Assembly (NCBI RefSeq): GCF_003664035.1
Contig: NZ_RCCK01000011.1
Span: forward strand, 682,001 to 746,000
Length of the DNA: 64,000 nt
Reading direction: 5' to 3'
From: Pedobacter alluvionis
Lineage (GTDB): Bacteria; Bacteroidota; Bacteroidia; Sphingobacteriales; Sphingobacteriaceae
The notes beneath the pieces were generated by a model. The model was not told the origin of the DNA and ran no database searches. It saw only the letters and a program-made list of their open reading frames with translations. Below are positions 2,872-48,400 of the stretch, piece by piece. Position numbers and translations under genes: made by a program. Within the stretch, counting starts at the first letter, position 1. The number at the start of each line of letters is the position of its first letter.

Positions 2872-4165
2872 GAAAGATATATTAGACAATATAGAACTAC
2901 GTTCTGAAAGTGTACAGGATGTACTCTCACAACCACCTCACTGGATGTTGCGTTGGGGAAGTGTTGTTATTTTAGGTATTATAATAATGGTTTTATTAAT
3001 GAGCTATTTTATAAAATATCCGGAATTTATACCTGCCCCTATTATGGTAACCTCACAAAACCCGCCTGAAAAACTGCAGGCAAGAAGCGATTCGAAAATT
3101 GAAAAAATTTTCATCAAAGATCACCAAAAAGTAAAAAAAGGCGAGGTGTTAATGGTACTGCAATCTACCGCAAACTATGACGATCTTTTAGCACTCAAAA
3201 AAATAATAGATGAGTTATCTCCTTCACAATTACTTTCATTTCCGGTTAACCAAATCTCAACATTTAAATTAGGAGAATTACAAAGTGATTATAATGCGTT
3301 TGCCAAGGCATTTCAGGACGAAAAATTATTTGCAAGGCTTAAGCCTTATGCCCCGGAAAATCTAGCCAACAACCAAAATATAGCGATATATAACAGCAGA
3401 ATTATCACACTGAAAAGGCAGAAATCGTTTGAACTTGCTAAATTCGACCTTATTAAAAAAAATTTCCAGCGTACCCAACAACTTTTTAGTCAGAAAGTGA
3501 TCTCTGCTTCGGAGTTCGAAAATGAAAAAATTAAACTTTTGCAGGCACAGCAAAGTTTGGAAAATATAGATATATCATTATCGCAAACAAACGAAGCTAT
3601 TTCTAACCTCAATAAAACAAAAGACGGTACAACAATAAATGCCGAAAAAGACAAAATAAATTTTGCTTCTCAAACCTTGCAGCTGTTTGAGCAATTGAGA
3701 AAATCTTTAAAACAATGGGAACAAAATTATTTAATTGTTTCTTCTACAGACGGTACCGCAAGTTTTCAACAATTTTGGGGAGAAAACCAGTTTATTAAAA
3801 GAGGTGATGCTATTTTATCTATCTTACCGGGTAATAAGAAAGCGCTGGTAGGCAGAATGTCGGTACCAGCAACCAATTCTGGTAAAATTGTTATAGGCGA
3901 AAGAGTTCTAATAAAGTTAGATAACTATCGTTACCAGGAATATGGCATTGTAGAAGGAAGGGTGCATAATGTCTCTTTTGCTCCTGATGAAAAAGGGAAT
4001 TACTATGTTGATGTAAGTCTTCCAAAAGGCCTAAAAACTTCTTATAACAAAAACCTTAATTTTGATAAAGAGTTAAAAGGTAATGCAGAAATTGTTACTG
4101 ATGACCTAAGGCTTATCGAGAGAATTTTTAACCAGTTTAAGGCACTTCTTAAAAACCATAGTTAA
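2861..4165 (+). CDS. HlyD-family secretion adaptor
   Basis: A 434-residue membrane fusion protein. It has a short cytoplasmic N terminus, one transmembrane helix (about residues 31-53, GSVVILGIIIMVLLMSY), a biotinyl-lipoyl-like segment (EKIFIKDHQKVKKGEVL), a long coiled coil (about 180-260), and a C-terminal beta-barrel region. It should link the PCAT to an outer membrane channel. The start is TTG at 2861, inside the end of the exporter gene. No ATG gives a full N terminus, so coupling is likely. No TolC gene follows directly, so a TolC encoded elsewhere, possibly the one at 18831, may serve. Confidence 0.9.
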   Translation: METKKDILDNIELRSESVQDVLSQPPHWMLRWGSVVILGIIIMVLLMSYFIKYPEFIPAPIMVTSQNPPEKLQARSDSKIEKIFIKDHQKVKKGEVLMVLQSTANYDDLLALKKIIDELSPSQLLSFPVNQISTFKLGELQSDYNAFAKAFQDEKLFARLKPYAPENLANNQNIAIYNSRIITLKRQKSFELAKFDLIKKNFQRTQQLFSQKVISASEFENEKIKLLQAQQSLENIDISLSQTNEAISNLNKTKDGTTINAEKDKINFASQTLQLFEQLRKSLKQWEQNYLIVSSTDGTASFQQFWGENQFIKRGDAILSILPGNKKALVGRMSVPATNSGKIVIGERVLIKLDNYRYQEYGIVEGRVHNVSFAPDEKGNYYVDVSLPKGLKTSYNKNLNFDKELKGNAEIVTDDLRLIERIFNQFKALLKNHS

Positions 4166-27774: not shown

Positions 27775-28139
27775 GTGGATGCTTGGTAGATGTAGGGAAT
27801 ATGTCTTTGCTTTTTGGTATTTCTTTTTTTTAATCTAACCCAGTATTGTATGGCCTGTTTTTAATTTTATTATCCACAGGCTACACAAGATTGGGCAGGC
27901 AGATGTTTTCACAATTAGTAGTTCTCACCGCTAATTATTTTGTTTTTGGCAAACAGTTTAAAGATTATAAAAAGAATGGATGCAGATAATTTTTTTACAT
28001 CAACCCTGTAGAATATTACACGAAACCCTGGTTTTTTTTAGACAAAACCGGATATGAGTTTTTTTTGGGTGCAATTGTTAATTCAATTCATTTTTATTTA
28101 ACTTGCATTCAAATCAAATAAACCCACATTTTTATACCC
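27775..28139. other. Divergent control region upstream of the LytTR regulator
   Basis: It separates the unknown minus-strand gene from the LytTR gene. It has no supported ORF. Its clear content is the set of three 22-bp-spaced half-sites at 28000-28049. Confidence 0.6.
28000..28050 (+). promoter_or_regulatory. Three direct half-sites at 22-bp period (putative LytTR operator)
   Basis: TCAACC (28000-28005), GAAACC (28022-28027) and AAAACC (28044-28049) recur every 22 bp. Two are embedded in longer matches (TTACATCAACCCTG and TTACACGAAACCCTG). Two-turn direct repeats are the usual arrangement for LytTR dimers. The last site ends about 90 bp before the regulator ATG. The motif itself is not a known consensus. 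Confidence 0.5.
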
Positions 28140-28886
28140 ATGAATCTAAAATGCGTTGTTATAGACGACGAGCAACATGCAATTGAAGTATTAACTGACC
28201 ATATTGCTGAAATGCCTGGTTTAACAGTTTTTAAAACTTTTACCAGTCCTGTCCAGGCACTTACTGAGATAAGTATTGAGGACGAAATTGATTTATTATT
28301 TATGGATATTGATATGCCGGGAATCAATGGATTGGAACTGGCCAAAAATATCAGAGAAAAAGCAAAATATTTAATTTTTACAACTGCCCATCCCGATTAT
28401 GCCTTGCAAGCATTTGATGTACAATCAGATCAGTACTTATTAAAACCTATTTCTTTTGCAAAATTTGCATTAGGTATTGATAGGATTTTAAAAAAGGAAT
28501 CAACTAATAGTAGTAAAACTACCACGAAAGAAACTGATCAGGTTGCAGCCCTTTACATCAAGGGCGACCACAAATATGCTTTTTCCAATATCGCTGTTGA
28601 CGAAATACTTTATATCAAAGCATTACAGAATTATATACAGATCATTACTAAGTCTGAAATCCACACGACCTATCTTACACTTAAAGAAATTGAAAAGGCC
28701 TTAGAAAGCCATCCTTTTATCCGTGTTAATAAATCTAACATTGTGGCTAAATCGGCAATCAAAAAAGTAGATGGAAATATAATCCGTTTGGTAAATAATG
28801 AGATGATACAAATTGGCGAAGGTTATAAAGAAGCTTTCTTCGCCTATGTTCAGAGCAGTTTGTTAAAATCGAACAGAAACCAGTAG
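28140..28886 (+). CDS. LytTR-family response regulator
   Basis: A 248-residue transcription factor. The receiver domain (1-120) has acidic residues in VVIDDEQ, the phospho-Asp in LLFMDIDMPG and Lys in LLKPIS. A short linker leads to a C-terminal LytTR DNA-binding domain (about 145-245) with DEILYIKALQNYIQII and FIRVNKSNIVAKSAI. It should be phosphorylated by the LytS-type kinase encoded 300 bp downstream on the same strand. The 22-bp-spaced sites upstream suggest self-regulation. The gap between regulator and kinase is unusual and holds a peptide gene in the opposite direction. Confidence 0.95.
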   Translation: MNLKCVVIDDEQHAIEVLTDHIAEMPGLTVFKTFTSPVQALTEISIEDEIDLLFMDIDMPGINGLELAKNIREKAKYLIFTTAHPDYALQAFDVQSDQYLLKPISFAKFALGIDRILKKESTNSSKTTTKETDQVAALYIKGDHKYAFSNIAVDEILYIKALQNYIQIITKSEIHTTYLTLKEIEKALESHPFIRVNKSNIVAKSAIKKVDGNIIRLVNNEMIQIGEGYKEAFFAYVQSSLLKSNRNQ

Positions 28887-28896
28887 GATAGTAATA

Positions 28897-29043
28897 TTAA
28901 AGTCCGAATATCCAAGTACCATTAGTTACTATAGTTTGACTTTGATCACCAGTTGGGTGGGTTGTAAAATTATTTTGATCTTTAGTGTTTTTATAAACAA
29001 AAATAGTTTTTTTAGTAAGTTTAGTCGTGTGTTGAGCTTTCAT
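28897..29043 (-). CDS. Candidate Thr-rich, Cys-free RiPP precursor or signal peptide
   Basis: A 48-codon ORF from ATG (29043) to TAA (28897), located between and antisense to the regulator and kinase genes. The N-terminal part is basic and leader-like (KLTKKTIFVYKN, residues 8-19) and resembles the K-L-x-K-x-T-I pattern I recall from Bacteroidota lanthipeptide leaders. The C-terminal part (about 26-48) is rich in Thr, Ser, Gly and Asn (FTTHPTGDQSQTIVTNGT), with 11 Thr and 1 Ser in the whole peptide, no Cys, and the end WIFGL. A Cys-free core could be dehydrated by LanB but could not form lanthionine rings by itself. It shares a divergent control region with the kinase gene. No Shine-Dalgarno is visible. 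This is a prediction from composition and context. Confidence 0.5.
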   Translation of the reverse strand: MKAQHTTKLTKKTIFVYKNTKDQNNFTTHPTGDQSQTIVTNGTWIFGL

Positions 29044-29127
29044 GATATAATATTTATGTGTGATTATTTATTGTTCTTATTAATTTCTGTAAAGGTGCAA
29101 CTCAAATCACAACGCAACTAGTTTTTT

Positions 29128-29160
29128 ACACAAAACCCCATTTTTAGGAGGCCAAAACCC
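29128..29160. promoter_or_regulatory. Two half-sites at 22-bp period in the kinase/peptide intergenic region
   Basis: TTACACAAAACCCC (AAAACC at 29132-29137) and CCAAAACCC (AAAACC at 29154-29159) are 22 bp apart. They match the sites before the LytTR gene, including the TTACAC prefix and a TTTTTAG block between the half-sites. The last site is 27 bp before the kinase ATG, and the first is 88 bp before the peptide ATG on the other strand. Confidence 0.5.
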
Positions 29161-29186
29161 TAATTCAGTAGATAAAAAGCAATAAA

Positions 29187-30302
29187 ATGATCTTTTTCAA
29201 CCTCAAAAAATTCCTTCAATATTATAAACTTCATCTCTTTATTTGGGGTATTTATATCATTTATGAGGTATTTATACTTGGTTTAGTATCGAAGTCTTTC
29301 AGGCCAACGGGTGCTTACATCATAATCTATGTCAGCAATATCACAGTATTTTACGCTCATGCTTTTTTTCTTAACAAACTTTTAAGTAATAAAAATTTAA
29401 AGTTAAAACCGATAAAGATTTCGTTACTTATCATCCTGACTATCTGTGGCTATACTTTATTTAACTACTATTCCGGATTAGCATTTATCAAATTAGGTTT
29501 TATCAGGATAAGCGGGCCAATTTCATTTACCCGCGAATTTATTCTTACCTGTACTTATCGTTCTTTATACTATATCGGCTTCGCAACAGGTTATGTTTAT
29601 CTTATTAAATCATTTCGGGATCAGAAGAAAGTAGAAGCACTGGAACGGCAGAACCTGGTTACCCAAATAGAAAAACAGGCTTTAGAGAACGATCTGGTTC
29701 AATCGCAAAACAATTATCTGCGTAGTCAAATCAATCCTCACTTTTTATTTAACACGTTAAACTTTATCTATAACGATGCCCGCAAAAAGGCACCCATGGC
29801 AGCAGATGCCATTATGAATCTGTCCGAAATGATGCGTTATGCCTTAAAACGCCCTGAAGCATCAGAGATGGTTCCACTGAGTGAAGAAATTGAACAGATT
29901 GAACACCTGATCAATCTCCATAAGCTGCGAACGGCTAATACCATCAATCTGGAACTTGAAATAACGGGCGATATGTTTGGTTTAAGATTTCCACCGCTTA
30001 TCTTATTAACTTTGGTCGAAAATATATTTAAGCACGGAAATATTTCACACTCTACCCAACAGGCGATCATTAAAATCACTTACGAAAGAGACAAGCTGAA
30101 TATCAGCACCATAAACATGATTAATGACAATAAAGGCAAACAGACAGAAAGCCATCATGTAGGGATTGACAATATTGGCAAGCGCCTGAGCAGTTTTTAT
30201 GGTAATGATTATATATTCAGGTATTATAAAGATCCACTTAACCGCTTCATCACAGAAATAGATGTAACTGTGGTTAATCCGTTAGCCAGGTTAAACCGCT
30301 AA
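29187..30302 (+). CDS. LytS-type sensor histidine kinase
   Basis: A 371-residue membrane kinase of the His_kinase (PF06580) class. About four transmembrane helices lie in residues 14-145. A coiled linker follows, then the phospho-acceptor box QINPHFLFNTLNFIYND (His185) and a GHKL-type ATPase end (PPLILLTLVENIFKHG, GIDNIGKRLSSFYG). There is no periplasmic sensor domain, so it senses at or in the membrane. Its partner is the LytTR regulator. It ends convergently with the LanB gene, the stop codons overlapping by 4 bp. Confidence 0.93.
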   Translation: MIFFNLKKFLQYYKLHLFIWGIYIIYEVFILGLVSKSFRPTGAYIIIYVSNITVFYAHAFFLNKLLSNKNLKLKPIKISLLIILTICGYTLFNYYSGLAFIKLGFIRISGPISFTREFILTCTYRSLYYIGFATGYVYLIKSFRDQKKVEALERQNLVTQIEKQALENDLVQSQNNYLRSQINPHFLFNTLNFIYNDARKKAPMAADAIMNLSEMMRYALKRPEASEMVPLSEEIEQIEHLINLHKLRTANTINLELEITGDMFGLRFPPLILLTLVENIFKHGNISHSTQQAIIKITYERDKLNISTINMINDNKGKQTESHHVGIDNIGKRLSSFYGNDYIFRYYKDPLNRFITEIDVTVVNPLARLNR

Positions 30303-33097
30303 ATTTTCGTCGCATTCAGGCGCTGAATATCTTTTAGTAAAAAATAGTATATAACCATTTCATGCGTTCGCTGATCTTTGTTAAAGAGCCTATTTACGTG
30401 CATGTGTATTAAATCGGTTAATAACTTTAACACATTTTCAGGCGCACCTTGTGTAAGAATCCTGATAAAAGAATCTGAAAACAGGCTAAAGCCCTGCTCC
30501 TGTTCTACTGTTAACGCTGTCCATTCTGTTTTTCGAAACTCCTGATAATGAATATTTAATTGTTTAAAATCGGTTGCATCTAACCGATGCTCTTCATTAA
30601 AGTTATCAGACATAAACCTCACAACCTTATTGATGGCGGCCTTATCTATAAGGTTAGCTCCGATAATTTTTGCGACCAAAAGGCTGCACAATTTATATTT
30701 GTTGAAATCATCGGTCTGGTTTTCTAAAAGCGATACTACAAATGCACTATCTACAGCGAAGTGCCGTTCAACATCTTCAATCATATTACTGCCGTAACGT
30801 TCCAGCTCACGCTTGTAGGTTTTAATCTGTACATCAGATACCAAACCTGAGTTTAAAAGCGATTCGAGATCATCCATGAGCCTTGATATTAACAGCTGCC
30901 CATCTATTGGATTGTTTAATTGAATTCTAAACCGGATGTGGTTTCCGTTTTCATTGTAACGGATAAAAAACCACGATTTTACCTGATCTGAAGAAGTGGT
31001 CAGGAACGGTGCTATGATTTCGGTCAAAATCTGATCACTACGTTGCTGATGGCAATAAATTTCGAAATAAAGCCATTCTTTACCTGGCAGGAAAAATCGG
31101 GTTACCCCGGCATTTACTGATGTTTCTACCAAACCACGATAAATTTGCTCATCATGACTTATACTCAAAACAAACTGTGCCAGATAGGGCTTAGCCGCTT
31201 CATCAACTACGATGCTATTTTGAGGGATGAGTATTTCTTCAATATAAGTACTGCCTTGTTTTTGTACATATTGTAGAAAAGCATTGATATCATCGTCGTT
31301 TTGCAGGGCAAAGCATAAAGTTTGATCGGACATACCGGCTTTAAAATATTCGCTAACGCCTAAATTGTTTAGGTATGATCTACATTCTGCAATGGGTAGC
31401 AACTTTTGATCGGGCCCTAACAGGACTTCTTTTTTAATTTTCCATTTATTACTACTTAAAACTATATTCTGATATTGTAACCTTGGGTAATAATCCAAAT
31501 CAGGGTAAATGGTATCGAGCGGAAAGGAAAGATTTGTTTGCAAGCCTTGATGTTGCAAATCGCACAATAACCTGAATACAGAAAGATCTGAACGGATGTA
31601 GTTGTAGGCAGAAGCCATTCTTGGCACCAGCCGTTTATTTAACTGCTTATAGCGAAGGATAATCTCTGTACCCCGAACTGAGATTTGTATGTCATTTAAA
31701 GCTAGTGGCGCCGTTGAGGTATCAAAATTTAAGATCGACAATTGATGCCCGTAGATTAACTTCCGGCGGTTTACATTATCTACATTGGCTTCTACCATAT
31801 AGGCCACATCAAAAAACAACACTTCGGGATTTGCCTGCTGTTCTGCGGATGCAATATCTTTAGCATACTGCTCCACCTCCCCGGCTGCCATGGTAAACCT
31901 TCCACTTAGTGCATTTGAGGTTACTCCACCTATCTGTTCTATAAAAATCAAATCATCATGAACAGACATTACCATACTGAATGAATTGGGTAAAGCTGCT
32001 AGTTTTTGATTCGGTGTTAAGACAAGTTTGTTCAGATAAACTGTTTTGCCTTTCTCAAATTTTTGTTCCGTCAGGTAGGATTTTAGTGCCGTTCTAATAT
32101 TTTCCGCCTCTGCTTTTTTGGGCGGCTTATTGTTAAAACGCGTGATAAACCCACTATTTTGGCCCGATTGCTCCAACTCATCGTATCCTACACCCATTTC
32201 AGGATCCAGCGCCAATAAAAGCGGTACTTCCCGATCTTCGAATTTTTTCTTAAACCGAACCTGGAACTGGCTAAGGGCATCACGATCTTTAGCAGGCATT
32301 ATATTATGAAGCATACTGATCAAACCTGGAATGGCCTGAAGCGAACGTTCATTAATACCGCCAGATAAAGCTATGCGTTGCGCGATAAGGTATTTTGGTA
32401 ACTCAGCCGCGTTAGCAAGCCCTAATCGCTCAAAATAATCATCTCCGATAATATTGGGATCGTAGTTGGTAAAAACAAGCTGTAAATCGTGCATATCCTG
32501 CAGCAAACCAAACAGTCCCTCTACTTCAATATCACTTAAATTTAATTGTTTTACCAGATCATCAAACCTGAGTGGCTTTAGGCAAGCCGTTAATATTTGT
32601 ATTACAAAATCGTCCTGATCCAGCTCGGCCAGTTCGAACACGCCATCGGCACAGGCTATATAGCGGATACTATTGGGTGTTGAATAATAACTACTATTAC
32701 TAAATATGAGGCAGTTTTTTTGCAACAAATCTGCCAAAGGCAATTGAATATTATTTTTGTGAGGCCAATCAATCAGTTCCCGTACCTTTAGCGCTTCTTC
32801 AACTACTATTCTGCTTTCGGATGGTTTAATGGCATTATTTAATAAACTAAAACTGGCAAAAGTGCCATAAGGGGTCGCTCTGAATTTCGCACGGTTAAAA
32901 TATTTCCATATGGTAAAATAAACCTTAGGTGGAAGATCTTTGAGTTCGTTTGCCTTTACTTCTTTTATGGTTTCGTAAAAAGCTGCGGAAGATATTGAAA
33001 TGGCCAGTTTTAATTCCTCCCAACAATCTGCCAGTTCGGATTGATATGAAAATTTAGGCGTTCTAAAAATTACGGTTGGTTGGATATTCAGCTTCAT
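30299..33097 (-). CDS. lanB: Class I lantibiotic-type dehydratase (LanB), full length
   Basis: A 932-residue protein. The N-terminal glutamylation part (about 1-640) starts like other Bacteroidota LanB proteins (TVIFRTPKFSYQSE, FRATPYGTFASFSLL). The C-terminal elimination domain of SpaB_C type (about 665-925) contains LYFEIYCHQQRSDQIL, SWFFIRYNENGNHIRFRI and YKRELERYGSNMIEDVERHF. LanB uses glutamyl-tRNA to glutamylate Ser/Thr and then eliminates to form dehydroamino acids. No LanC cyclase, peptide transporter or protease is next to it. The only nearby precursor candidate is the peptide at 28897. It is probably transcribed alone, since 268 bp separate it from the upstream operon. Confidence 0.92.
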   Translation of the reverse strand: MKLNIQPTVIFRTPKFSYQSELADCWEELKLAISISSAAFYETIKEVKANELKDLPPKVYFTIWKYFNRAKFRATPYGTFASFSLLNNAIKPSESRIVVEEALKVRELIDWPHKNNIQLPLADLLQKNCLIFSNSSYYSTPNSIRYIACADGVFELAELDQDDFVIQILTACLKPLRFDDLVKQLNLSDIEVEGLFGLLQDMHDLQLVFTNYDPNIIGDDYFERLGLANAAELPKYLIAQRIALSGGINERSLQAIPGLISMLHNIMPAKDRDALSQFQVRFKKKFEDREVPLLLALDPEMGVGYDELEQSGQNSGFITRFNNKPPKKAEAENIRTALKSYLTEQKFEKGKTVYLNKLVLTPNQKLAALPNSFSMVMSVHDDLIFIEQIGGVTSNALSGRFTMAAGEVEQYAKDIASAEQQANPEVLFFDVAYMVEANVDNVNRRKLIYGHQLSILNFDTSTAPLALNDIQISVRGTEIILRYKQLNKRLVPRMASAYNYIRSDLSVFRLLCDLQHQGLQTNLSFPLDTIYPDLDYYPRLQYQNIVLSSNKWKIKKEVLLGPDQKLLPIAECRSYLNNLGVSEYFKAGMSDQTLCFALQNDDDINAFLQYVQKQGSTYIEEILIPQNSIVVDEAAKPYLAQFVLSISHDEQIYRGLVETSVNAGVTRFFLPGKEWLYFEIYCHQQRSDQILTEIIAPFLTTSSDQVKSWFFIRYNENGNHIRFRIQLNNPIDGQLLISRLMDDLESLLNSGLVSDVQIKTYKRELERYGSNMIEDVERHFAVDSAFVVSLLENQTDDFNKYKLCSLLVAKIIGANLIDKAAINKVVRFMSDNFNEEHRLDATDFKQLNIHYQEFRKTEWTALTVEQEQGFSLFSDSFIRILTQGAPENVLKLLTDLIHMHVNRLFNKDQRTHEMVIYYFLLKDIQRLNATKI

Positions 33098-33365: not shown

Positions 33366-35366
33366 TTATTTTTTGGTCACTTTAAATTCTGTTCTTCTGT
33401 TTTTAGCTCTTCCTTCAGGATTATCTTTTTTCTTACGTTTTACAATAATTTCATTTGGCGCAATTGGCATCGATTCTCCATATCCTTTAGAAGTCATTCT
33501 GGCAGCGGCAACTCCTTTACTTTCCAAATAATCTGTACAGGATTTAGCTCTTCTGTTCGATAGGTCTAAGTTGTACTCATCTGTACCAATATTATCAGTA
33601 TGAGAACCTAGTTCGATTTCCATTTCAGGATTATCTTCCATAATCGGGATCAGGAAATCTAATACTTTTTTAGAAGGCTCAGTAAGTTCTGTACTGTTAA
33701 ATTCGTAATAAACATTATCCAGAGTTATCGGGATACCCAATTTGAAAGGGCTTAAGCAATAATCTTTATAAATCAAGGTGTCTGCCTTTGCCAGTTCTTC
33801 GTAAATGTAGTTTTTAGTAATTGAGAAATAATTATCTTTTGCAAAAAGCAATTTGACCGGTCTTTTGGAATCTACTTTAAAACTGTAAATCCCATCGTTA
33901 CCTGTAGTTATTTTCTGCGATCCTTCTGCATTTGTTAAAGTTACATTGGTACCTGCCAAAGGCAATTTAGTTTTACAATCGGTTAAAAGGCCTGCTATAG
34001 AAAGGTATTCTTTTTTCACTTCAAACACCTCCAAACAGCACGATGATTCGCGATCAGAACTAATGTATCCTTTTGTTCCTTTATCATCAGTTGCGGTAAA
34101 GTAAAGATCATCTTTTGATGAGTTGAACGGATAACCGAGATTTTTGGGCTCAGACCAATTTACCAGATCGCCCTCTGACTCAAAAAAATCAAGGCCACCG
34201 AAACCAATACGTCCGTCGGTACTGAACAATAACTTTTTGGTTAATGAATTGTAATACGGTGCACGTTCGTCATCTCCGGTATTAATTGCTGATCCAAAAT
34301 TTACAGCCTGTCCTAATGAACCATCTTCCCGCAAAGTACAATACCAAAGGTCGAATTTACCATAACCACCACTTCTATCAGACGAGAAAAGAAGGAATTT
34401 ACCATCGCTGGTTACAAAAGGTTGTGAAGAATTAAAATCTCTACTGTTTACCTGTAAACCAAGGGGTTGTGGATCTGCCCATTTATCGCCTGTTTTTTTA
34501 GAAGAGTAAATAGCATATTTTTCTTTATCCTTCCAGGCGGTAAAGTACATTGTATTTCCGTCAGGGGTAAAAGTAACCGCAGCAATTTCCATGTTTTTAG
34601 GAAAATTGATATCGACTTTTCTTACTGCTATATCATCCGAAGCTAATTCGCCTTTAGCTGCATAGATATTGTTGATGAATGGATTGGTCTTAGTTGATAC
34701 CTGAATTTCTCCTGCATCTGTTTTAACCATATCTTTTTTATTCCCCACAGCAACCGGACGTGATGAAGTGAAATACAATTCGTTATTGATTTTAACGGGC
34801 GCATAGTTAGATCCTAAACCATTTACATTGCCAGGTACTTTTTTAACCTGTACTATGCGTGGAAAGCGCATTTCTTCGATTGCAAACTTACACGACTCAA
34901 TTTCCTTTTGTGCTTCTTTAGCTAAAGCATCGCCAGGATTTTTCTCGATAAACTGTTGAAAAGCATCAATAGCCAGATTAAATTTTTTATTTGCTCTTAA
35001 ACTTTCGGCATAATAATACAGCGCCTTCCTAAAACGTGTATTCGTAAATGTTATCGCTATAGCATAATATTTTTCAGCCTCATTAAATTCCCTATAGAGT
35101 CTACTGGACTCTGCAAGGTTATAAATCGATCCTTCATAATCTTCTATCACTTTATCATCAGAGGCTACTTTTCTTTCTTTACCATATGGTAAAATGGCCT
35201 GGGTACTATCGCCGGTAATTTTTAAGGCTTTTTTATAAAAAGTAGATGCCGCATAATAATCCTTATTTTCGAAATAAGTATCTGCAACTTTTTTATAATT
35301 TACCACATACTGTGCGTTTGCAAAACCGCCAAATGCCACTAACAAAAAGAGTAATATTTTTTTCAT
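33366..35366 (-). CDS. PorE-like multidomain OmpA-family protein
   Basis: A 666-residue protein with signal peptide (ending ANAQ). TPR-like helices follow (about 20-150: ADTYFENKDYYAASTFYKKAL). A beta-propeller of WD40/PD40-type repeats comes next (about 170-450: FTSSRPV, LLFSSDRSGGYGKFDLWYC, LLFSTDGRIGFGGLDFF), then a carboxypeptidase-regulatory-like beta-sandwich (about 455-535) and a C-terminal OmpA domain (LGSHTDNIGTDEYNLDLSNRRA). This order matches PorE, the peptidoglycan-linked protein of the type IX system. It is the last gene of the adhesin operon, so it may be a dedicated anchor for that adhesin. Unlike classical PorE there is no lipobox Cys. Confidence 0.9.
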   Translation of the reverse strand: MKKILLFLLVAFGGFANAQYVVNYKKVADTYFENKDYYAASTFYKKALKITGDSTQAILPYGKERKVASDDKVIEDYEGSIYNLAESSRLYREFNEAEKYYAIAITFTNTRFRKALYYYAESLRANKKFNLAIDAFQQFIEKNPGDALAKEAQKEIESCKFAIEEMRFPRIVQVKKVPGNVNGLGSNYAPVKINNELYFTSSRPVAVGNKKDMVKTDAGEIQVSTKTNPFINNIYAAKGELASDDIAVRKVDINFPKNMEIAAVTFTPDGNTMYFTAWKDKEKYAIYSSKKTGDKWADPQPLGLQVNSRDFNSSQPFVTSDGKFLLFSSDRSGGYGKFDLWYCTLREDGSLGQAVNFGSAINTGDDERAPYYNSLTKKLLFSTDGRIGFGGLDFFESEGDLVNWSEPKNLGYPFNSSKDDLYFTATDDKGTKGYISSDRESSCCLEVFEVKKEYLSIAGLLTDCKTKLPLAGTNVTLTNAEGSQKITTGNDGIYSFKVDSKRPVKLLFAKDNYFSITKNYIYEELAKADTLIYKDYCLSPFKLGIPITLDNVYYEFNSTELTEPSKKVLDFLIPIMEDNPEMEIELGSHTDNIGTDEYNLDLSNRRAKSCTDYLESKGVAAARMTSKGYGESMPIAPNEIIVKRKKKDNPEGRAKNRRTEFKVTKK

Positions 35367-35436
35367 CTTTCTAAACTTGTTTTCAATGGTGATGAAACTA
35401 TCCTGGTTTTAAAGCATAATAGTTTCATTTGAATAA

Positions 35437-36438
35437 TTATAATCGTGGGCAAAAGAAGTTTGGACCAATGATACCGTTACGGCCAATTAACGAGATGGAA
35501 AGCTCTAAACCACCGTTACTGTTAGAGGCACGGTTAAAAGTAGAGGTATTTACATCGTAACTTAAGCCGAATACCATATTCTTTAATTGTAAGCCAACAA
35601 AGGCAATTGCCGCATCTTTATTACGGTAGTTACCTCCAAATAAAATATTTGCGGATGGATTAACGTTAAGCTGTGCATAAGCACCCAACGAAACTTCGTT
35701 TGTATTACCCTGGTACATAAATAATGCGTTAGGCACAATATCCAACAAATCAGAAGCCTTGATTCTGGCCCCACCATGAACAGTAAAACGAACCGGAATA
35801 CGTGAATTTGAGCCAGAGAAACGATCCATGGGGCGGTTTAAGTGTGCTGCACTTGCGCCTAAGAAAACGTTTACACTTTTGTTCGGGTTACCATCGAAGA
35901 ACATAATACCTGCGTTTATATCGGGAACCAGCGATGATAGAGAAGAAAGCGTTTCGCTATTTATCATACCACCATCATAACCTGAAACTGGATTAAACTG
36001 ATTACCGAACCTGGCCTGAGAGAAATCGAAACTACGGTTAATTATACCCGCCTGTAAGCCAAAGCTCACCATCTGCAAGCCCTCGGCACCAAACCGCAAA
36101 CGGTACGAGCCTGATACCAGGGCAGAGAGGTAGTTAAAATCCAGCTCTCCAGCCCTTTGATTTAAAATGGTTGCACCAAATGCCAGGTTCTTTTTGGGAG
36201 CCATATCGAAAGATGCTCCACCTGTTAAAAAAGAACTGTTTAGCGCACTCCATTGTTGTTTAAAGTTTACAGTTGCACGGTAATCGCCATCTATTACTCC
36301 CGTTAATGCCGGGTTAAGGTATAACGGATTTGCATAGTATTGCGAAAAATGTGGATCGGTTTGCGCAAAGGACTTGGCTGTACACAACAGCAATCCCAGC
36401 ACTACAACATATATTTTTAAAGCCGATAGTATTTTCAT
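35437..36438 (-). CDS. PorP/SprF-family type IX secretion membrane protein
   Basis: A 333-residue outer membrane beta-barrel with signal peptide (ending KSFAQ), followed by TDPHFSQYYANPLYLNPALTG, the hallmark N terminus of the PorP/SprF family. Alternating strands run to the C terminus. SprF proteins are needed for secretion or attachment of the large adhesin encoded just upstream, and here it sits 37 bp after a giant adhesin gene. The PorE-like gene follows 70 bp later. The three-gene order matches SprB-type loci of gliding Bacteroidota. Confidence 0.94.
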   Translation of the reverse strand: MKILSALKIYVVVLGLLLCTAKSFAQTDPHFSQYYANPLYLNPALTGVIDGDYRATVNFKQQWSALNSSFLTGGASFDMAPKKNLAFGATILNQRAGELDFNYLSALVSGSYRLRFGAEGLQMVSFGLQAGIINRSFDFSQARFGNQFNPVSGYDGGMINSETLSSLSSLVPDINAGIMFFDGNPNKSVNVFLGASAAHLNRPMDRFSGSNSRIPVRFTVHGGARIKASDLLDIVPNALFMYQGNTNEVSLGAYAQLNVNPSANILFGGNYRNKDAAIAFVGLQLKNMVFGLSYDVNTSTFNRASNSNGGLELSISLIGRNGIIGPNFFCPRL

Positions 36439-36475
36439 GGTCTTTGGTTTTATCTGTTTATTATTAATCCTCTTC

Positions 36476-39400
36476 TTATCTAATCAGCGTTACTGTACCT
36501 TTTCTCATTGATGTTGTTCCATTAGTGAATGTAATATCAACCATGTACACATACACACCGATTGGCTGATTTACACCTTTAAAGGTTCCATCCCATCCAT
36601 TTGCTACATTGTCTGATTGGAATATCAACTGACCCCATTGCGTATAAATATTCATTTTCGCGCTTGATATGGTATTACCGTAGATTAAGAATATATCGTT
36701 TTTACCGTCGTTATTTGGTGTAAATGCATTTGGTATATAAACCTGATCTTCAAAAGGATTAGCTGCTTTACCAGTTGCTGAACCGTTCTGACTGGTTTCA
36801 CACTCGGTCTGACCTTTTGCCCTTACCAGGATACTTACATTTTGATCTGGTTTCAAGCCTGATACCAGGTAAGTTGTTCCAGTTGCTCCACCTGTAGGAT
36901 TAATCCAGGTTAAACCATTATCTAATGAAACCTGATATGCTGTAGCACCTGCAACCGCAGCCCATGCAAACGTTACACTGTTTGATGTAGTACTTTGTAC
37001 CACCACTACTGGCTTATCTAATACCGGCAGTACAGTTACTGTAACTGCTGTTCTTGCTGGACTTGCACAGCCACCTACTGCTACTGCCTCTACATAATAA
37101 ATGGTAGTAGCACTTAAGTTTGGTGGGGTAAAAGTTATACCTTCTGCCAATACCGCTCCACCTGAGCTTGCAGCGTACCATCTGTAAACTAATCCAGTTA
37201 CCGGGTTATTTACAGTTAATATAGTTGAGCTACCTGAACAAAGTGTTCCATTTGCTGCTGTTACTGATGCTGGCGCAACTGGTACTGGTAAGGCAATTAC
37301 ATTTACCGGTGTTCTTGATGATGAGATACAGGCGCCATTTGCTCCTTCAACATAGTAAGTGATGTTTGCATTAACCGCAGGTGTTGTAAAGTTTACACCT
37401 GTTCCTGCCAATGTTCCACCTACCGCTGCTGTATACCAGTTATACATTACACCTGTTTGAGGGCTTGTAACTGTTAATGTAGCTGAGCTTCCTATACATA
37501 CATTAACTGATGCAGATGCTACTGTTGGTATAGTTGGTTTTATGTTAACTGCTACTGTTACTTTAACACGGCCTCCGTTGTTGTTACACCCACCTGTTCC
37601 GTTTGCTGAAATATAGTAATCTGTTGTTGCAGCTAAAGCTGTTACATTGAATGTAGTACCAGTAAATAATAAATTACCTCCAACTGCTTCATCGTACCAT
37701 TCGTAAGTAACACCTGCCTCTGCATTGGCTATTGTTAGTGTGGCTCCATCTCCTGAGCATATGCCTCCGTTTGGAGCAGATACTACCGGGCTGTTTGGTA
37801 ACGCATTTACAGTAATGGCTACCGCTCTTGCTGTAGCTGCAGTATTTTCACATTTATTATCGCCTTTAACCGTTACATAATATGTTGTGCTTGCAGCTAA
37901 TACCGGGGTAGTAAATACCGGGCCGGTAAACACTACTGTGTTTAGTGCAGCATCGCTATACCATGTAAATATTGGATTGGTTACTGTTGTGCTTGTAGCA
38001 GCCAATGTTGCTGCTGAACTGGCACATATCGATGTTGATCCGTTTACAGCTATATCTGTTGCCGCAGCGATTGGGTTAACAGTAATGGTTACTGTTTTAG
38101 CATTAGCTGCAGTATTCTCACATTTATTATCGCCTTTAACCGTTACATAATACGTTGTTGTAGTAGTTAATACCGGCATTGTAAATATGGGACCGGTAAA
38201 GGCAACACTTGTTAATGAAGCATCGTTGTACCAAGTAAATACAGGATTGGTAACTGTTGCTGAACTGGCATTGATCACAGCTGTTCCAGAACCACATACA
38301 CTCGCTGGTGTAGATAAGGTAATATCTGCTGTTGTTGCGACTGCATTAACATTTACGGTAACCACTTTTGCATTTGCAGCAGAACTTTCGCATCTGTTAT
38401 CACCTTTCACTGTGAGGTAATATTTAGTGGTTGCGGTTAACGCTGGTGTATTAAAGGATGCGCCCGTAAATACTGGTGTAGTTAAAGCAGCATCGCTGTA
38501 CCAGGTAAATACCGGGTTAGTTACTGTTGTGGTGCCCGCCACCAAACTTGCTGATGAGCCTGCGCAGATCGTTGCATCTGCTGCAGTAACATCAGTTGCA
38601 GAAGCTACAGGGTTAACTACAATATTAACAGACTTAGCTGTGGCTGTACTGTTTTCGCATTTATTATCACCTTTAACCGTAACATAATAGGTGGTATTGG
38701 CTGTTAATGCTGGTGTATTAAATACTGCTCCTATATAAGCCACATCAGTTAAAGTTGCGTTGGTGTACCAGGTAAATACCGGGTTGGTAACTGTTGTGCT
38801 ACTTGCCGTTAGTACTGCTGCAGATCCTCCGCATATATTGCTTGATCCACTTACCATAACATCACTTGCAACTGCTATTGGGTTAACTTTTATGGTCACT
38901 GCTGCTGCATTTGCTGCAACGTTTTCACATCTGTTAGTTCCTTTTACGGTTACATAATAAGTGGTTGTAGTGGTTAATGCCGGGGTAGTAAATATTGGTC
39001 CGGTAAAGGCAACGCTTGTTAATGAAGCATCATTATACCAGGTAAATATTGGATTGGTTACTGTTGTTGAGCTTGCATTAATTACTGCAGTACCCGATCC
39101 ACACACTAAAGCTGGTGTAGATAAAGTAATGTCTGCGGCAGTTGCACTCTGATTCACATTTACAGTTACCACTTTTGCAGTAATACCTGAGTTTTCACAT
39201 TTGTTATCACCTTTAACTGTAACATAGTATTTAGTTGTTGCCGTTAATACCGGGGTAACGAATGATGTACCCACATAAGCTACTGAAGTTAGACCCGCAT
39301 CACTGTACCAGGTAAAGACTGGGTTTGTTACTGTTGTAGTACTGGCTACCAAAGTAGTAGCCGATCCTGAACAGATGGCTGCATCATCAGCTGTAATATC

Positions 39401-42400
39401 GGAAGCAGTTGCAACAGGATTAACCGTAATAGTAATTACCCTTGCGTTACCAGGTGCATTTTCACATTTATTATCACCTTTTACAGTTACATAATAAGTG
39501 GTTGTGCTGGTTAATGCCGGCGTACTATAAGTTGCACCAATGAAACTTACATTGGTTAAGGCGGCATCACTATACCAGGTAAATACCGGGTTGGTTACTG
39601 TTGGCGATGTTGCATTTAATACCGCAGATGATCCTGCACAAACTGATGTGCTTCCGCTAAGGATAATATCAGTAGTCGTGGCCAATGGATTAACCGTTAC
39701 AGTTACCGCTTTAGCATCTGCAGCACTGTTTTCGCATTTGTTGGTACCTTTAACCGTTACATAATACGTAGTTGTGGCTGTTAATCCGGTTGCGGTAAAC
39801 GTTGGGCCAGTAAATACCGCGCTGGTTAACGAAGCATCGCTGTACCAGGTAAACACTGGTTGCGTTACCGTGGTGCTCGAAGCCATTAACATTACGGCAG
39901 AACCCGAACAGATTTGGGCATTGCTTACTGCAATGTCTGCAGCGGTAGCAAAATCCTTAACGGTTACGGTAACTATCTTAGCGTTAGCTGGTGAATTTTC
40001 ACATTTATTATCACCCTTAACAGTTACATAATAAGTAGTGTTTGCATTAAGTGCAGGTGTAGTAAAGCTAGCGCCAACATAGGCTACTGTAGTTAAAGCA
40101 GCATTACTATACCAGGTAAATACGGGGTTAATTACTGTTGTTGTTGAAGCAGACAGTGTTGCTGTAGATCCTTTACAGATTGAGGTAATTCCGTTAATGG
40201 CAATATCTGCATCAGTTGCTGCCGGATTAACCGTAATGGTTATCGGTTTAGCGGTTGCTGCAGTATTCTCACATTTATTATCGCCTTTAACCGTTACATA
40301 ATAAGTGGTTGTGGCATTAAGCGTTGGCGTAACAAAGCTAGCCCCGGTAAATGCTACAGTAGTTAAAGCTGCATCACTGTACCAGGTAAACACCGGGTTG
40401 GTTACCGTTGTACTTGTTGCATTTAAAGTAACTGAAGCGCCACCGCATATGGTACTCGTTCCCGATAAGTTTATATCAGCCAGAGTGGCAACAGGGCTTA
40501 CTGTTATCGTAACCTCTTTTGCATTACCAGCTGTGTTTGCACATTTATTTGTTCCACTAACAGTAACATAATATTTGGTAGTTACACTAATGGCTGGTGT
40601 ATTAAATACTGCACCTACAAAAGCTACCTGGGTTAAAGCAGCATCGCTGTACCAGGTAAACACCGGACTGGTTACTGTTGTACTGGCCGCAGTAAGTACT
40701 GCTATTCCAGAAGCACACAATGATGTAGTTCCGGTTACTGTTAAATCGGCAGCAACCGCAGATGGATTAACGGTTATAGAAATTTTAGCACGTGTAGCGT
40801 TTGAACAGCCCGCTCCGCTTACGGCTTCAATATAATAATCGTATGTTCCTGCTGCGAGGGATGTAGATGTAGTAAAGCTACTGTTGTTGGTTACCAACAT
40901 ATTTCCGGCTACAGCCGCATCGTACCAGTTATAAGTTACTCCTGTAACGGCTTGCACACTTAAGGTAGCAGGTGAGCCGATACAAGTTGTGGCGGGGTTA
41001 TTAGTTGATGGAATGGGCGCTACTGGCGGAGTTAAAATAGTTACTGTTACTTTGGTTCCCGGAGTCTCACAACCATTAGCAGTTGCCGTTACTGAATAAG
41101 TATAAGTTCCGGCAGTTAAGGCAGGATCTGTTGTGAAAGTTGCCCCATCTTTTCCTGTCTGATAAGTTGAGCCTAAGTACCATTTGTACACTACGCCTGC
41201 TTGTGGGTTCTGCACACTTAATGTTGCGGATGAACCTTGACAAGCACTTGCCGTAACAGCATTAACTGTTGGCGTGGTGATTACACGTTGTGCATAATCT
41301 AAATTAACAGATGTTAATGCCCCTAACAAACCAGAACTTAATCTCAGTTCTGCTCCATCAAATTTACTGGTTGGAACGAAAGTTAATATTGCAGATGTAC
41401 CGCCAGATAATAATTTTAAGCTAATTAATGGGTTAGCAATAGAAACCGCATCGTTATTGCTGGTTGTACCCTGGAAAGTAGTTACGGTTAAGTTATTTAA
41501 TACTCCTGCCGAAAGCAATGTTCCTGGAGTGGTAATCTTCACTCTTAAGGTATCGCCTACATTTGACAATCCTGTAAAGCCAACCTGGTGATAAACAGAT
41601 GCACCAAGTAATCCCACTGGGATAACCAAACTGGATCCGGTATTAATATCATTATCAACCGCAAAAGTAGGGTTGAAAACACCGGCTAGTACAGCTGCCC
41701 CAGTTACGCCACTTGCAACTGTTGCTATAGCTGCTCCACAAGGCGTAGTTACCGGTGTACCATTAGGAATAACAGTAACCGTTACGGTTGCCCTGCTTGT
41801 TGCAGTACAGCCTCCAGGTATGGTAGCCTCTACATAATAAGTTGTTGTTGCACTTAATTGTGGTGTTACATACGTTTCACCAGTATGTACCGGAACTGTA
41901 CCGTTTGCAGTAGTGTACCAGTTAATGGTTGCACCTGCTGTACCAGAAGTTGCCTTTAATACCGCAACAGCACCTTCACTGATGGTGATAGATGGCGGTG
42001 TAATTACCGGAACATCAATAGTTCCTAAAATAACTTTACCTTCTGTTCTTGCTGATGAAGAACCACAGCCATTAACTGCTGCAACAAAATAACTGGTATT
42101 TGCAGTAATTAAAGGTGTTGTAAAGTTATCGCCAGTGAATACTAAGTTTCCACCTACCGCAGCATCGTACCAGTTATAGGTTGTACCTGCAATTGGATCT
42201 TTAACCTGGAAGGTAGCTGATGTATTCGGACAGGTATTAACCGATGCCGAAAGCAGATCAGGTGTTACCGGTGCAGGGTTTGTAGTAACGTTTACTACTG
42301 TTTTGTAGCTTACACAACCTGTTGCAGAAACTGCAGCAACATAGAATTTAGTATCGCCTGTTAAAACTGGGGTAGTAAAGATAACACCGTCTTTACCGCT

Positions 42401-45400
42401 TAGGTAAGTACCAGTAGCATCGTACCACCTGTAGGTTAAACCTGCTGATGGATTACTTACCTGCAATTGAGCGGTTGAGCCTAAACAAGCAGTAACGTTA
42501 GCAGCTGTTACGGTTGGCGCAAGCAAAATGCGTTGTGCGTAATTTAAATTGATCGAAGTTAATGCACCCAATACACCTGAGTTTAATCTTACTTCTACTC
42601 CATCAAAAACATTAGTTGGAACAAAAGTGATTAAGGCCTGTGTATTACCGCTCAACAACTGAACATTTAATAAGTTATTGTTTAACAGTCTCGAATCACC
42701 ATTGCTATTTGTTCCAACATAAGTAGTAATTGAAGCGTTCCCTAATAACGACAGCGACAATAATTTTCCTGGCGATGATACCAATACACGCACGGTATCA
42801 CCAACAGTAGATAGTGACCCAAAACCAACCCTCTGATAAACTGATGCTCCAAGCGCTCCAACAGGCATAACCAATGAAGATGCGGTTTGGGTATCGTTAT
42901 CAATCGCTAAAGTTGGGTTAAATACACCTGATAATAAGGCTACGCCTGTAACACCACCAACTTGTGTTGTTGCGGCTTCGCATGGTACTGGGTTTGGCGA
43001 TCCATTACCATCAACGGTAATGGTCACCTGAACACGGCTTGCCGAAGTACAACCATTGGTAGAAACCGATTCTACATAATAAGTTGTAGTAGCAAACAAT
43101 GGCGGTGTAACATAAGTAGCACCTACATAAACAGGTATAGTTGAAGTATTAGAATTATACCAATTGAAAGTATTGGTTGGATCTGCAGAACTAGCCATTA
43201 AAATTGCAGTTTGTCCTGCACCCACTGTTGATGAATTGGCAGTTACTACAGGTAACACCGGACGGGGATTAACTGATACCGCAGCTGCTGCACGTGCAGC
43301 ACTTGTACAGTTTCCTTGTGATGCTTCTACATGATAAGTAGTGGCGGCTGTTAAGGCCGGAGTTTGGAATACTGCGCCTGTGAAAACCAGGTTTCCACCT
43401 ACCGCAGCATCGTACCATTTATAGGTTACTGCAGCATCTGGATTGGCAACTGATAACGTTGCTGATGATCCCTCACAAACATTGGCAATTGTTGCCAATA
43501 CTGGTGTGGGTAATGCTGGTGTAACGGTTACAGTTACCGGAACTCTTGTTGTGTTTGGACAACCTGCTTTACTTACCTGAATATAATAAGTTGTAGTAGC
43601 AGTTAATGCTGATGTAGTAAATGTTTCGCCAGTGGCTAATTGTGTGCCACCAGTTGCGGCATTGTACCAGGCTAATGTCGTACCACCATTTGCTGTTGCA
43701 GTTAAAGTTGCCGTACTTCCTGCACAAATGGTTTGTGCACCCGCTGTTACCGTTGGATTAGGATAAATTACAGTAGCACCATAAATATCTAAACTGGTTA
43801 ATGCCGATACTAATGCACCAAAGCTTACCTGTACCCTATCGTAAACACCTCCGGCTAAAATGGTAGCCGCGAAACGAGAACCTGAAAGTAATTGAAGATT
43901 TAATAATGATGAATTTAATTGAACTGATCTAACCACTGTTGATCCGTTCAATACGTTTACAGTAACATTACCCAGTGCCGTTAAATCTAATAAACCACCT
44001 GGTAAAGCTAAATCTAAACGGATGCTATCAGTTGCAGTTCCAGCGTTAGGGAAAATTAATTGCTGGTAACCTGATGAACCAACACCTACTGACAACGATA
44101 TTCGGGTAAAGTTAGATGGATCTGCATCAGTAGAGTTTCCGGCTCCGGTTATTCCGCACAATAAACAAATTCCGTTTATACCTGTGTTTTGCGAATTAGC
44201 AGTATTACATGCGGTGCCACCACCGTTGTTTAATACAGTAACAGTTACTGGTACGCGGCTTGCACTTTTACAACCGCTGGCATTTGTAGTCTCTACATAA
44301 TAAGTAGTAGTTGCCGATAATATTGGGGTAGTAAATGAAGTACCAGCACCTACCTGTGTTCCACCTGTAGCAGCATCGTACCATTGAATGGTATTTCCAG
44401 CATCTGCTGTTGCCAATAAGGTAGTAGATTGACCTGCATTAATTACCTGGTTGTTCGTAGTTACGGTTGCGGCAGTTGCTGGTGGGTTAACAGAAACGTT
44501 AACCGCGGTTCTTGAACTTACTGCAGTTCCTGATACTGCCTCAACATAAAATACGGTTGGAGCGGTTACTGCAGGAGTTACAAAAACACCTGTGTTATTA
44601 GTAAACAATGGTGTACTTCCGGTAGAAGCATACCAGTTATAGGTTACACCAGCTTGCAAATTGCTTACACTTAGTGTAGCCGGACTTCCAGCACAAACAG
44701 TTGCTGCAGCAACCACTGGTGCATCAACCGTTACAGTTAAGCTATAAGTTGTTGTTGCTTTGTTTCCGTTTGCGTCTGTTGCAGTTAAAGAAATTGAAAA
44801 GGTTCCACCTAAAGTTGGTGTTCCTGTAATTTCTCTTGTTGCGGTATTGAAACTTAATCCTGGAGGAAGGTTTGAAGCTAAATAAGTATATGGTGCTGTT
44901 CCACCGGTTACCGCTGGCAAAGTTTGCGTTGGGTAAGGTGTGCCTACAATACCGTTAGGTAAAGTAGCACCTGGTAATGTTAATAAACCTATTACTTTAA
45001 GTGCATAAGTATTACTTGCTGTTCTGCCCTCACTATCTGTAACGGTAAGACTGATAGAATAATTTCCGGCCTGTGTAGGCGTTCCAGAAACTGCTCTAGT
45101 TGCGGGATTAAAAGTTAACCCTGCCGGAAGATTGCTTGCTACATAAGTATATGGGCCAACGCCACCGGTTGCCGATGGCAAGGTTTGCGTGGCATAAACT
45201 GTTCCTTCTGTTCCATCAGGCAAAGTTGCTGCCGGTAACAATAAAGGATCAACTACTACAATTGTATAGTTATTGGTTGTTGTTTTTCCATCAGCATCAG
45301 TAACCGTTACCGGTACGGTGAAAGTTCCGGATTGGGTAGGTGTTCCGGTAATTTCTCGTGTTGCCGGATTAAAAGCTAATCCCGGAGGAAGACCCGTTGC

Positions 45401-48400
45401 AGCATAAGTATAAGGTGTTGAACCACCTGTTGCAGATGGAATAGTTTGGATAGGATAAACTGTGCCAGTTGTTCCATTGGCTAAAGTAGCCGCAGGTAAA
45501 ACCAACGGATCGGTTACTTTAAGCGTATAGTTAGCTGTAATCGTATTGCCATTAGCATCGGTTACTGTTACCGGAATAGTAAATGTTCCGATTTGATTAG
45601 GCGTGCCCGTAATTTCTCTGGTAACCGGGTTAAAAGTCAAACCCGGAGGAAGCGCAGTAGCCGTATATGAATACGGACCAGTTCCACCTGTTGCAGCTGG
45701 AATTCCGTTTGTTGTATATGGTGCGCCTGTTACACCGTTAGGCAATGCTCCGGGAGCTAAAGCTAAGGCTGGCGTTACAGTTAAAGTGAATGTTGCAGTT
45801 GTACTACAAGCTTTTGTATCAGTTACTACAACATCAAATGTTGGATTACCTGTGGCAGTTGGCGTTCCACTTATCAGGCCACTTGGCGATAAAGTTAAAC
45901 CAGCTGGTAAGGTACTACCTGCAGCTAAGGCATAAGTATAACCTGGTGTTCCGCCAGAAGCAACAGGAAGCTGCTTACTGTATGGAGAGGCAATTGTTGC
46001 ATTTGTTAAAGTTGTACCTGCAAATACAATTGCCGGATTAACGGTAATAACTACCGGAACCCTTGTTGTATTTGAACAGGTCCCTTTAGTTACCTGAACA
46101 TAATACGTAGTTGTTGTTGTTAATGCCGGAGTAGTAAAGTTTGCGCCTGTTCCCACTTGTGTTCCACCTGTTGGCGCATCGAACCAGGTTAAGGTTGTAC
46201 CACCATTTGCAGTTGCACTTAATGTTGCAGTGCTGCCTGAACAGATCGATTGTGCACCAGCTATAAATGTTGGGTTTGGATAAACTACCGTTGCGCCATA
46301 AATATCTAAGCTTGTTAAAGCGGAAACCAGTGCACCAAAGCTTACCTGAACCCTATCATAAGCGCCACCCGCTAAAACAGTTGCTGCAAAACGATTGCCT
46401 GATAATAGTTGAAGACTTAATAATGCGCCGTCTAATTGAACTGTTTTTACAACTGTAGTACCATTTAATACCGTAATGGTTACATTATTTAAAAGACCAA
46501 CATCGGCTAAACCAGTTGGTAAAGCTAAGTCTAAACGGATGCTATCTGTAGCAACACCTGTAGAAGGAAAAATTAATTGTTGATAACCTGTTGCTGTAAC
46601 GCCTACAGCAAGAGAAATCCTGGTGAAGTTGTTTGCATTGGCATCAGTAGAGTTACCTGCGCCATTTATAGCGCATAATAAACAGATCCCATTAATACCA
46701 GTATTCTGATTGTTTGCTGCATTGCAAGCTGTTGCGCCGCCGCCGTTAATTACAGTTACAGTTACCGGAACGCGGCTTGCACTTTTACAGCCATTGTTGC
46801 TTGTGGTTTCTATATAATAAGTTTTGGTTGCAGATAAGGCTGGCGTAGTGAACGAAGTTCCTGTTCCAACCTGTGTTCCCGCTGATGGAGCATCAAACCA
46901 GGCAATGGTATTTCCAGCATCGGCAATAGCGGTTAAAGTTGTAGTTTGTCCGGAGTTGATTACCTGGTTATTAGTCGTAACTGTGGCTAAAGTTGCAGGT
47001 GGATTAACTGAAACTGTAACCGATGTTCTCGAACTGATTGCTGTTCCGGAAACAGCTTCTACATAAAATACAGTTGCTGAACTTACTGCAGGCGTCACAA
47101 AAGTACCGTTATTGCCAGTTACTAATGGTGTACTTCCTGTTGAGGCATACCAGTTATAAGTTACACCAGCCTGTAGGTTACTCACTGTTAAAGTAGCAGT
47201 GCTTCCGGTACATACCGTAGCTGAAGCCACAAGCGGCGCATTTACTGTTACGGTTATGGCATAAGTCGTTGTTGCTTTATTATTGTTAGCATCTGTAGCA
47301 GTTAAAGCAACATTATAAGTACCACCTTGCGTCGGTGTTCCGGTAATTTCTCTTGTTGTGGGGTTGAAAGATAATCCCGGAGGAAGGTTTGTTGCTGCAT
47401 AAGTATACGGAGACGCTCCACCTGTTACAGCCGGTAATGTTTGCGGTAAGTAAGAAGTACCAACAATACCGTTAGGTAAAGTTTTTGTTGGTAAAGTTAA
47501 GGTACCATTTACTTTAATTGGATAAGTGTTACTGGCTGTTTTACCCTGGCTATCGGTAACTGTAACACCAATTACATAATTACCTGCCTGGGTTGGTGTA
47601 CCAGTAATCTCTCTTGTAGCCGGATTAAACGATAATCCGGCAGGGAGATTAGCACCTACATACGTATAAGGACCAACACCACCTGTTGCAGCCGGGAGAA
47701 CTTGTGTAGCATAAGTAGTGCCCTCTGTTCCATCTGGCAAAGTTGCCGCTGGTAATACCAATGGGTTATTTATAATAACACTATAATTTGTAGTTACCGT
47801 TTTTCCATCAGCATCTGTAACCGTAACGGGTACGGTATACGTTCCTGGTGTTGTTGGTGTACCGGTAATGGCCCTGGTTGATGGATTAAAAGTTAAACCT
47901 GGAGGAACACCTGTTGCCGAATAAGTATAAGGCGTAGTTCCTCCGGTTGCACCTGGAATAATCTGTGTAGTATATACTGTTCCTGTAGTGCCATCAGCTA
48001 ATGTTGCTGCAGGTAACAATAAAGGATCAGTAATTTTTATGGTATAGCTGGAAGTAATGGTATTACCGTTTGCATCAACAACCGTAACTGGTATCGTATA
48101 TATTCCAGGTTGGCTTGGTGTTCCGGTAATTTCTCTTGTTGTTGGATTAAAAGTTAAGCCAGGAGGAATACCTGTTGCGGTATAAGTGTACGGTCCTGTT
48201 CCACCAGTTGCGGCTGGTATAGTCTGTGTTGGATAAACAGTTCCTGTTAAACCATCAGGTAATGCGCCCGGTGTAAGTACCAATGCTGCGGTAACCGTTA
48301 AATTATAATTCGCGGTTGCTTTACAACCTTTGGCATCAGTTGCAACTACAGAAAAAGTGTAAGCATTGGCTACGGTTGATGTTCCGGTAATTACGCCAGC

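Follow-up and report, generated by a model that had tools for sequence, protein, structure and literature searches.

We found that the 64,000-nucleotide stretch of Pedobacter alluvionis DNA analyzed here (the window) carries a conserved peptide gene that is absent from the annotation and occupies, in antisense orientation, the 300 bp separating a LytTR-type response regulator from a PF06580 sensor histidine kinase. The variable core of the peptide co-varies with the membrane-spanning sensor of that kinase. Taking these sequence patterns together, we consider it probable that the product of this gene is a precursor from which a RiPP-type peptide pheromone is made, and that regulator, peptide and kinase form one self-inducing signaling module. 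The features of the locus are listed in the table.

Table. Features of the candidate signaling module and the adjoining dehydratase gene (window coordinates).
Feature	Position	Strand	Basis
Three tandem repeats upstream of the regulator (TTACAT[C/G]AAC.. units, 21-22 bp apart); predicted LytTR sites	27995..28049	+	Pattern matches, kept in relatives
LytTR-type response regulator (receiver and LytTR DNA-binding domains)	28140..28886	+	PF00072 1.6e-17, PF04397 2e-16
Hypervariable cassette spanning the peptide gene, the control region and the sensor part of the kinase gene	28840..29620	.	DNA profile of the window against G331, replicate pairs
Candidate 48-aa precursor peptide gene	28897..29043	-	Translation, syntenic homologues, alignment, dN/dS
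Conserved non-coding stretch ahead of the peptide gene, GCACCTTTACAGAAATTAATAA..	29066..29104	-	Comparison of the upstream sequences from 48 loci
Direct repeat of the same type, located between the peptide and kinase genes; predicted LytTR site, divergent control region	29126..29170	+	Pattern match
PF06580 sensor histidine kinase	29187..30302	+	PF06580 6.5e-22
Full-length LanB dehydratase, 932 aa (Lant_dehydr_N and Lant_dehydr_C)	30299..33097	-	PF04738 7.1e-59, PF14028 2.2e-55

The peptide ORF starts with an ATG at 29043, stops at 28897 on the minus strand, and encodes MKAQHTTKLTKKTIFVYKNTKDQNNFTTHPTGDQSQTIVTNGTWIFGL. It contains 11 Thr and 1 Ser among 48 residues (25%) and no Cys, and all six of its Lys and Arg residues fall within the first half; coordinates and translation thus agree with the sequence-only reading, which had described an uncalled, Thr-rich, Cys-free 48-codon gene antisense between regulator and kinase. 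Alignment of homologues revealed a conserved leader at approximately residues 8-19, K-L-x-K-K-T-[IV]-F-V-Y-K-[NS], followed by a variable, Thr-rich, Cys-free core (approximately residues 20-48) whose Thr and Ser residues are kept across divergent family members. In congeneric genomes, tblastn matches reached E 1e-24 at the same syntenic position; among the genomes of 59 relatives, about 16 congeners gave strong matches, all syntenic and often in tandem arrays. Syntenic homologues were present in dozens of Pedobacter genomes, with one to eight tandem copies per locus, and the addition of a further 31 loci to the peptide set, in which the relatives are Pedobacter species, gave the same picture. 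No Pfam or NCBIfam family was matched by the peptide, which rules out a known family in these collections.

Pooled pairwise counts gave a dN/dS of approximately 0.13 for the leader stretch and approximately 0.16 for comparable cores, indicating purifying selection; the pairs are non-independent, but the ratio is nonetheless far from 1. A short, antisense and unannotated frame might be a chance ORF, or the trace of an antisense regulatory RNA that yields no protein. However, the ORF has stayed intact across dozens of species, its tandem copies included, and this conservation, together with the dN/dS of 0.13-0.16, rules such an explanation out, leaving it a negligible likelihood. From these patterns of conservation, we conclude that the ORF is a real gene, conserved across Pedobacter and relatives, as had been supposed from the single sequence, and that its substitution ratio is not the neutral one that would have told against it.

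The gap holding the peptide gene had initially been taken to split an otherwise normal regulator-kinase pair. The gap is present, but the 'split' order proved to be the usual arrangement of the module and is conserved. In the named genomes, the order regulator, gap, kinase was found at 65 of 79 LanB loci, and every one of those 65 gaps contained an antisense peptide of the family. Most divergent LanB homologues (28-43% identity) keep this arrangement too, with a neighboring regulator and kinase separated by 230-375 bp. An antisense ORF was present in nearly all of the 36 divergent gaps, its leader reading K..TLFV[YF]K and its core TDPTT..T.T. These divergent modules occur in Pedobacter, Mucilaginibacter and Olivibacter, normally beside a full-length LanB gene and with no LanC. 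In seven congeners that lack LanB, all 29 examined pairs were in the ordinary kinase-then-regulator order. A LanB tree gave no clean clades separating the two gene orders.

We also observed a sister arrangement, in which kinase precedes regulator and LanB converges on the pair, at 11 loci (L286, L287, L288, L289, L293, L294, L297, L301, L305, L306 and L311) of Mucilaginibacter, Pedobacter, Taibaiella and metagenome-assembled genomes. Here the peptide is divergent from the kinase in most cases, has a related leader and carries a single Cys near its end (..INCTV, ..KTCLK, ..TKFC), which would permit one thioether ring. Several of these loci encode thioredoxin-like proteins nearby, and no LanC was found among the proteins checked.

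The presence of the peptide is closely tied to that of LanB. A profile search for the peptide and a search for LanB covered one common set of 301 family genomes. Every one of the 53 genomes with a confident peptide also encodes a full-length LanB of this type, and none of the 216 genomes without this LanB contained the peptide at E<=1e-3 (p=6e-37 over the 301 genomes; p=2.4e-5 within the genus). Four genomes without a LanB of this type gave weak peptide matches (G187, G193, G251 and G265; E 0.003-0.009), which is about the chance level for 301 genomes. Homologues with conserved amino acids thus do accompany this regulator, kinase and LanB, as the earlier proposal had anticipated. The dehydratase had been placed next door to the peptide; it does adjoin the kinase, in convergent orientation, but it lies beyond the kinase and hence not beside the peptide itself. 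In addition, the genome of the window contains four regulator-peptide-kinase modules, three of which, at C1:1264132, C5:348924 and C7 ~87500-88500 (L072, L075 and L076), have the order regulator, antisense Thr-rich peptide, kinase and no adjoining LanB. On the other side of LanB, window 33366-49936 encodes an OmpA-type protein, a PorP/SprF-like protein and a 4486-aa repetitive Ig-like protein; the first two genes are syntenic in many relatives, but we place them outside the module because they are missing or replaced in several module loci.

The LanB protein has both domains of a class I dehydratase and retains residues essential in NisB. In an alignment with NisB, Y66, R69, R73, W552 and H898 correspond to Y80, R83, R87, W616 and H961, and mutation of these NisB residues abolishes or impairs dehydration (PMC4341554). 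R12, which is invariant among relatives, may correspond to NisB R14, although it lies in a region outside the alignment. The retention of these residues makes a dehydrated product from the peptide plausible.

Such a product would not be a lanthipeptide. Pinensin and Pedobacter lusitanus PedA15 are class I lanthipeptides of Bacteroidota, and the present system resembles that group in its LanB with glutamylation and elimination domains, its Thr/Ser-rich core and the L-x-K-K-T-[IV]-like stretch of its leader. This stretch bears some resemblance to the LxLxKx5L motif of Bacteroidota class I lanthipeptide leaders (PMC7268733), but the peptide matches no Pfam or NCBIfam model. In contrast to that group, the locus has a LanB but no LanC, no transporter, no Gly-Gly site at the end of the leader, and no Cys in the core. 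Among 87 distinct syntenic peptides, 85 lack Cys and 2 contain it. The genome gave LanC-like matches at only two places, both distant from the window: C3:317212, where a split LanB adjoins, and C9:23169. The first belongs to a separate, canonical-looking class I lanthipeptide locus (C3:317212-319298) with LanC, a split LanB and a C39 exporter about 5 kb away. A lanthipeptide made with LanC acting in trans is ruled out in this branch by the lack of Cys, and the early suggestion of a ring-free product holds in that a lanthionine ring is excluded here. Judged by its gene content and peptide sequence, then, the system is not a lanthipeptide. A 2020 survey of lanthipeptides required LanC within seven genes (PMC7268733), so that LanC-less loci of this kind would be missed.

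We found that the peptide gene, its control region and the sensor part of the kinase gene together form a hypervariable cassette. Between the window and its closest relative (G331), whose peptide core is of another type, cassette DNA is 43-83% identical, whereas the flanks are mostly 90-100% identical. Likewise, the sensor (aa 1-150) is 55% identical, as against 99% for the kinase core, 99% for the regulator and 96% for LanB. The edges of the cassette are the 3' end of the regulator and the sensor/core boundary of the kinase; the same breakpoints were found in the pairs L202/L041 and L038/L031, and no drop across the cassette was found in the same-core pair L184/L035. Across 45 loci, with regulator, kinase core and LanB as controls, peptide core and sensor were correlated (partial Mantel r=0.51, p=0.0005), but peptide core and kinase core were not (r=-0.09, p=0.91). 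In no pair with a core identity below 0.55 did sensor identity exceed 0.75; on the other side, a few pairs with nearly the same core had sensors that were just 51-60% identical. By analogy with agrD/agrC, co-variation of core and sensor within such a cassette is a hallmark of pheromone-receptor pairs.

The kinase consists of a four-helix transmembrane (4-TM) sensor (aa 1-150, 29187-29636) and a kinase core (aa 151-371). An AlphaFold2 model (mean pLDDT 78.5, pTM 0.48) places helices at residues 3-35, 41-67, 74-103 and 116-181, consistent with four TM segments. A fold search with this model returned generic kinase-core matches alone, the best being the cytoplasmic domain of AgrC, with which it shares only the kinase fold. 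Between core types, the most divergent stretch is aa 76-125, which covers TM3, the loop predicted to face outward and the first part of TM4: identity there is 40%, versus 100% at aa 151-250.

Exchange of contiguous DNA may account for some of the co-variation, since peptide, control region and sensor adjoin one another. If the cassette were simply exchanged as a linked block, the peptide could be a LanB product with an unrelated role, such as a surface-active or morphogenetic one, that is merely controlled by the pair, a reading with which the strong LanB linkage is also compatible. We nevertheless hold this to be quite improbable: the block ends at the regulator's end and at the sensor/kinase boundary in three separate pairs, and divergence within it is aimed at the TM sensor, as the contrast between aa 76-125 and aa 151-250 illustrates.

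A different account of the co-variation is that the peptide is an unmodified small protein that tunes the membrane domain of the kinase from inside the producing cell, with LanB acting elsewhere. The peptide has no visible export signal, and the three modules without an adjoining LanB would fit as well. This account seems unlikely, however, given the absence of confident peptides from all 216 genomes lacking this LanB, the RiPP-like division into a conserved leader and a core, and the retention of core Thr and Ser in divergent members; nor is the peptide a hydrophobic TM helix. The RiPP assignment of the sequence-only reading is supported in part, as regards the conserved gene and its LanB association, but it missed the LanB-less modules and the co-variation of core and sensor. 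A signal for the flanking kinase appears the better reading of these sequences than a LanB natural product that merely happens to be located there, because the split order is conserved, the genome contains LanB-less modules, and core and sensor co-vary in a hypervariable cassette.

The distribution of predicted LytTR sites would fit a circuit that acts on itself. The repeats upstream of the regulator correspond to two overlapping pattern matches at C2:709995-710049 of the genome (G000), and the repeat between peptide and kinase to a match at C2:711126-711158 (window 29126-29158) that is kept in relatives, with up to three units. These three matches, all in this module, were the only ones in the 6.04-Mb genome, and the reversed control gave none; as the pattern was derived from the module's own conserved upstream regions, the informative result is the absence of matches elsewhere. 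No such repeat was found in front of LanB. A looser genome-wide scan gave a mismatch-free match only at the regulator's own promoter and a single one-mismatch match, inside a long open frame, while two-mismatch matches were no commoner than in the control. A wider regulon beyond the module thus receives no support over background. With putative LytTR sites only ahead of its own gene and that of the kinase, the regulator is predicted to be autoregulatory. The conserved non-coding block upstream of the peptide is probably the promoter or leader of the peptide mRNA.

Nisin, a LanB-modified peptide, induces its own biosynthesis (PMC4341554), and the peptide described here could similarly be an autoinduced antimicrobial, a bacteriocin that uses the flanking two-component system to drive its own synthesis. 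Arrays with as many as eight tandem copies suggest high output, and the core differs between species. Yet the module lacks immunity, transporter and protease genes, LanB has no LytTR repeat ahead of it, several modules per genome have no adjoining LanB, and the peptide has no Cys with which to form the rings required in class I lantibiotics. We accordingly rate a bacteriocin as improbable. As in the nisin locus (NisA/NisB/NisRK), a two-component system and, as proposed here, a LanB-modified peptide share one locus; unlike that locus, this one has no cyclase, immunity or transport genes, its pair is of the LytTR/PF06580 type, and it has a hypervariable cassette.

The pheromone reading brings the module close to agr (AgrD/AgrC/AgrA) and other Gram-positive peptide-pheromone two-component systems such as ComC/ComD/ComE. 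As in those systems, a short precursor gene lies by a polytopic kinase and a LytTR regulator, and peptide and sensor are hypervariable between conserved flanks. The agr hypervariable region comprises the 3' part of agrB, agrD and the 5' part of agrC (PMC3673130); the cassette described here similarly takes in the peptide gene along with the 5' portion of the kinase gene that encodes the sensor, and autoregulation is predicted. Unlike agr and Com, the module is found in Gram-negative Bacteroidota, contains no AgrB-like or C39 protein, has a kinase with four TM helices, and carries its peptide gene antisense between regulator and kinase. Its associated enzyme is a LanB, so that the proposed product, a linear peptide with dehydrated residues, would be neither a thiolactone nor a plain peptide. 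In the open-access papers searched, we found no report of peptide-pheromone/kinase quorum sensing in Bacteroidota, or of this system.

Beyond the conserved gene, the conserved module and the co-varying sensor, we infer the following steps. LanB would bind the K-L-x-K-K-T-[IV]-F-V-Y-K leader and dehydrate Thr and Ser residues of the core. The product would be a linear Dhb/Dha peptide, as there is no Cys and no LanC beside the peptide. Machinery encoded at other loci would remove the leader and export the core; no dedicated transporter or leader peptidase was found in the module, and five full C39-type exporters are encoded elsewhere in the genome. Another RiPP export locus lies at window 2-4165, 25 kb from the peptide gene. 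It comprises part of a grasp-with-spasm peptide maturase, truncated at the edge of the window and scoring below the curated cut-off, together with a C39 peptidase ABC exporter and, downstream, an ORF resembling an HlyD-type adaptor. The 4-TM kinase would then bind the mature peptide of its own pherotype, and the phosphorylated regulator would bind the repeats upstream of its own gene and in the kinase/peptide control region, creating positive feedback. The other three modules of this genome, which have no LanB beside them, probably use the same LanB in trans.

A broader proposal is evenly balanced in our estimation: that these modules belong to a widespread peptide family whose pheromones depend on LanB, are dehydrated and have no ring, each being read by a 4-TM kinase specific to its pherotype. 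The Gram-negative Bacteroidota would then possess a peptide quorum-sensing system in which a single dehydratase serves several parallel channels within a genome. Soil- and plant-associated genera commonly carry the module, and the natural swaps of pherotype between near-identical strains provide ready-made test pairs. If the proposal is true, LanB loci would directly reveal sender-receptor pairs, and the LanC-less LanB genes of the phylum would gain a role, that of a dehydratase making linear signals.
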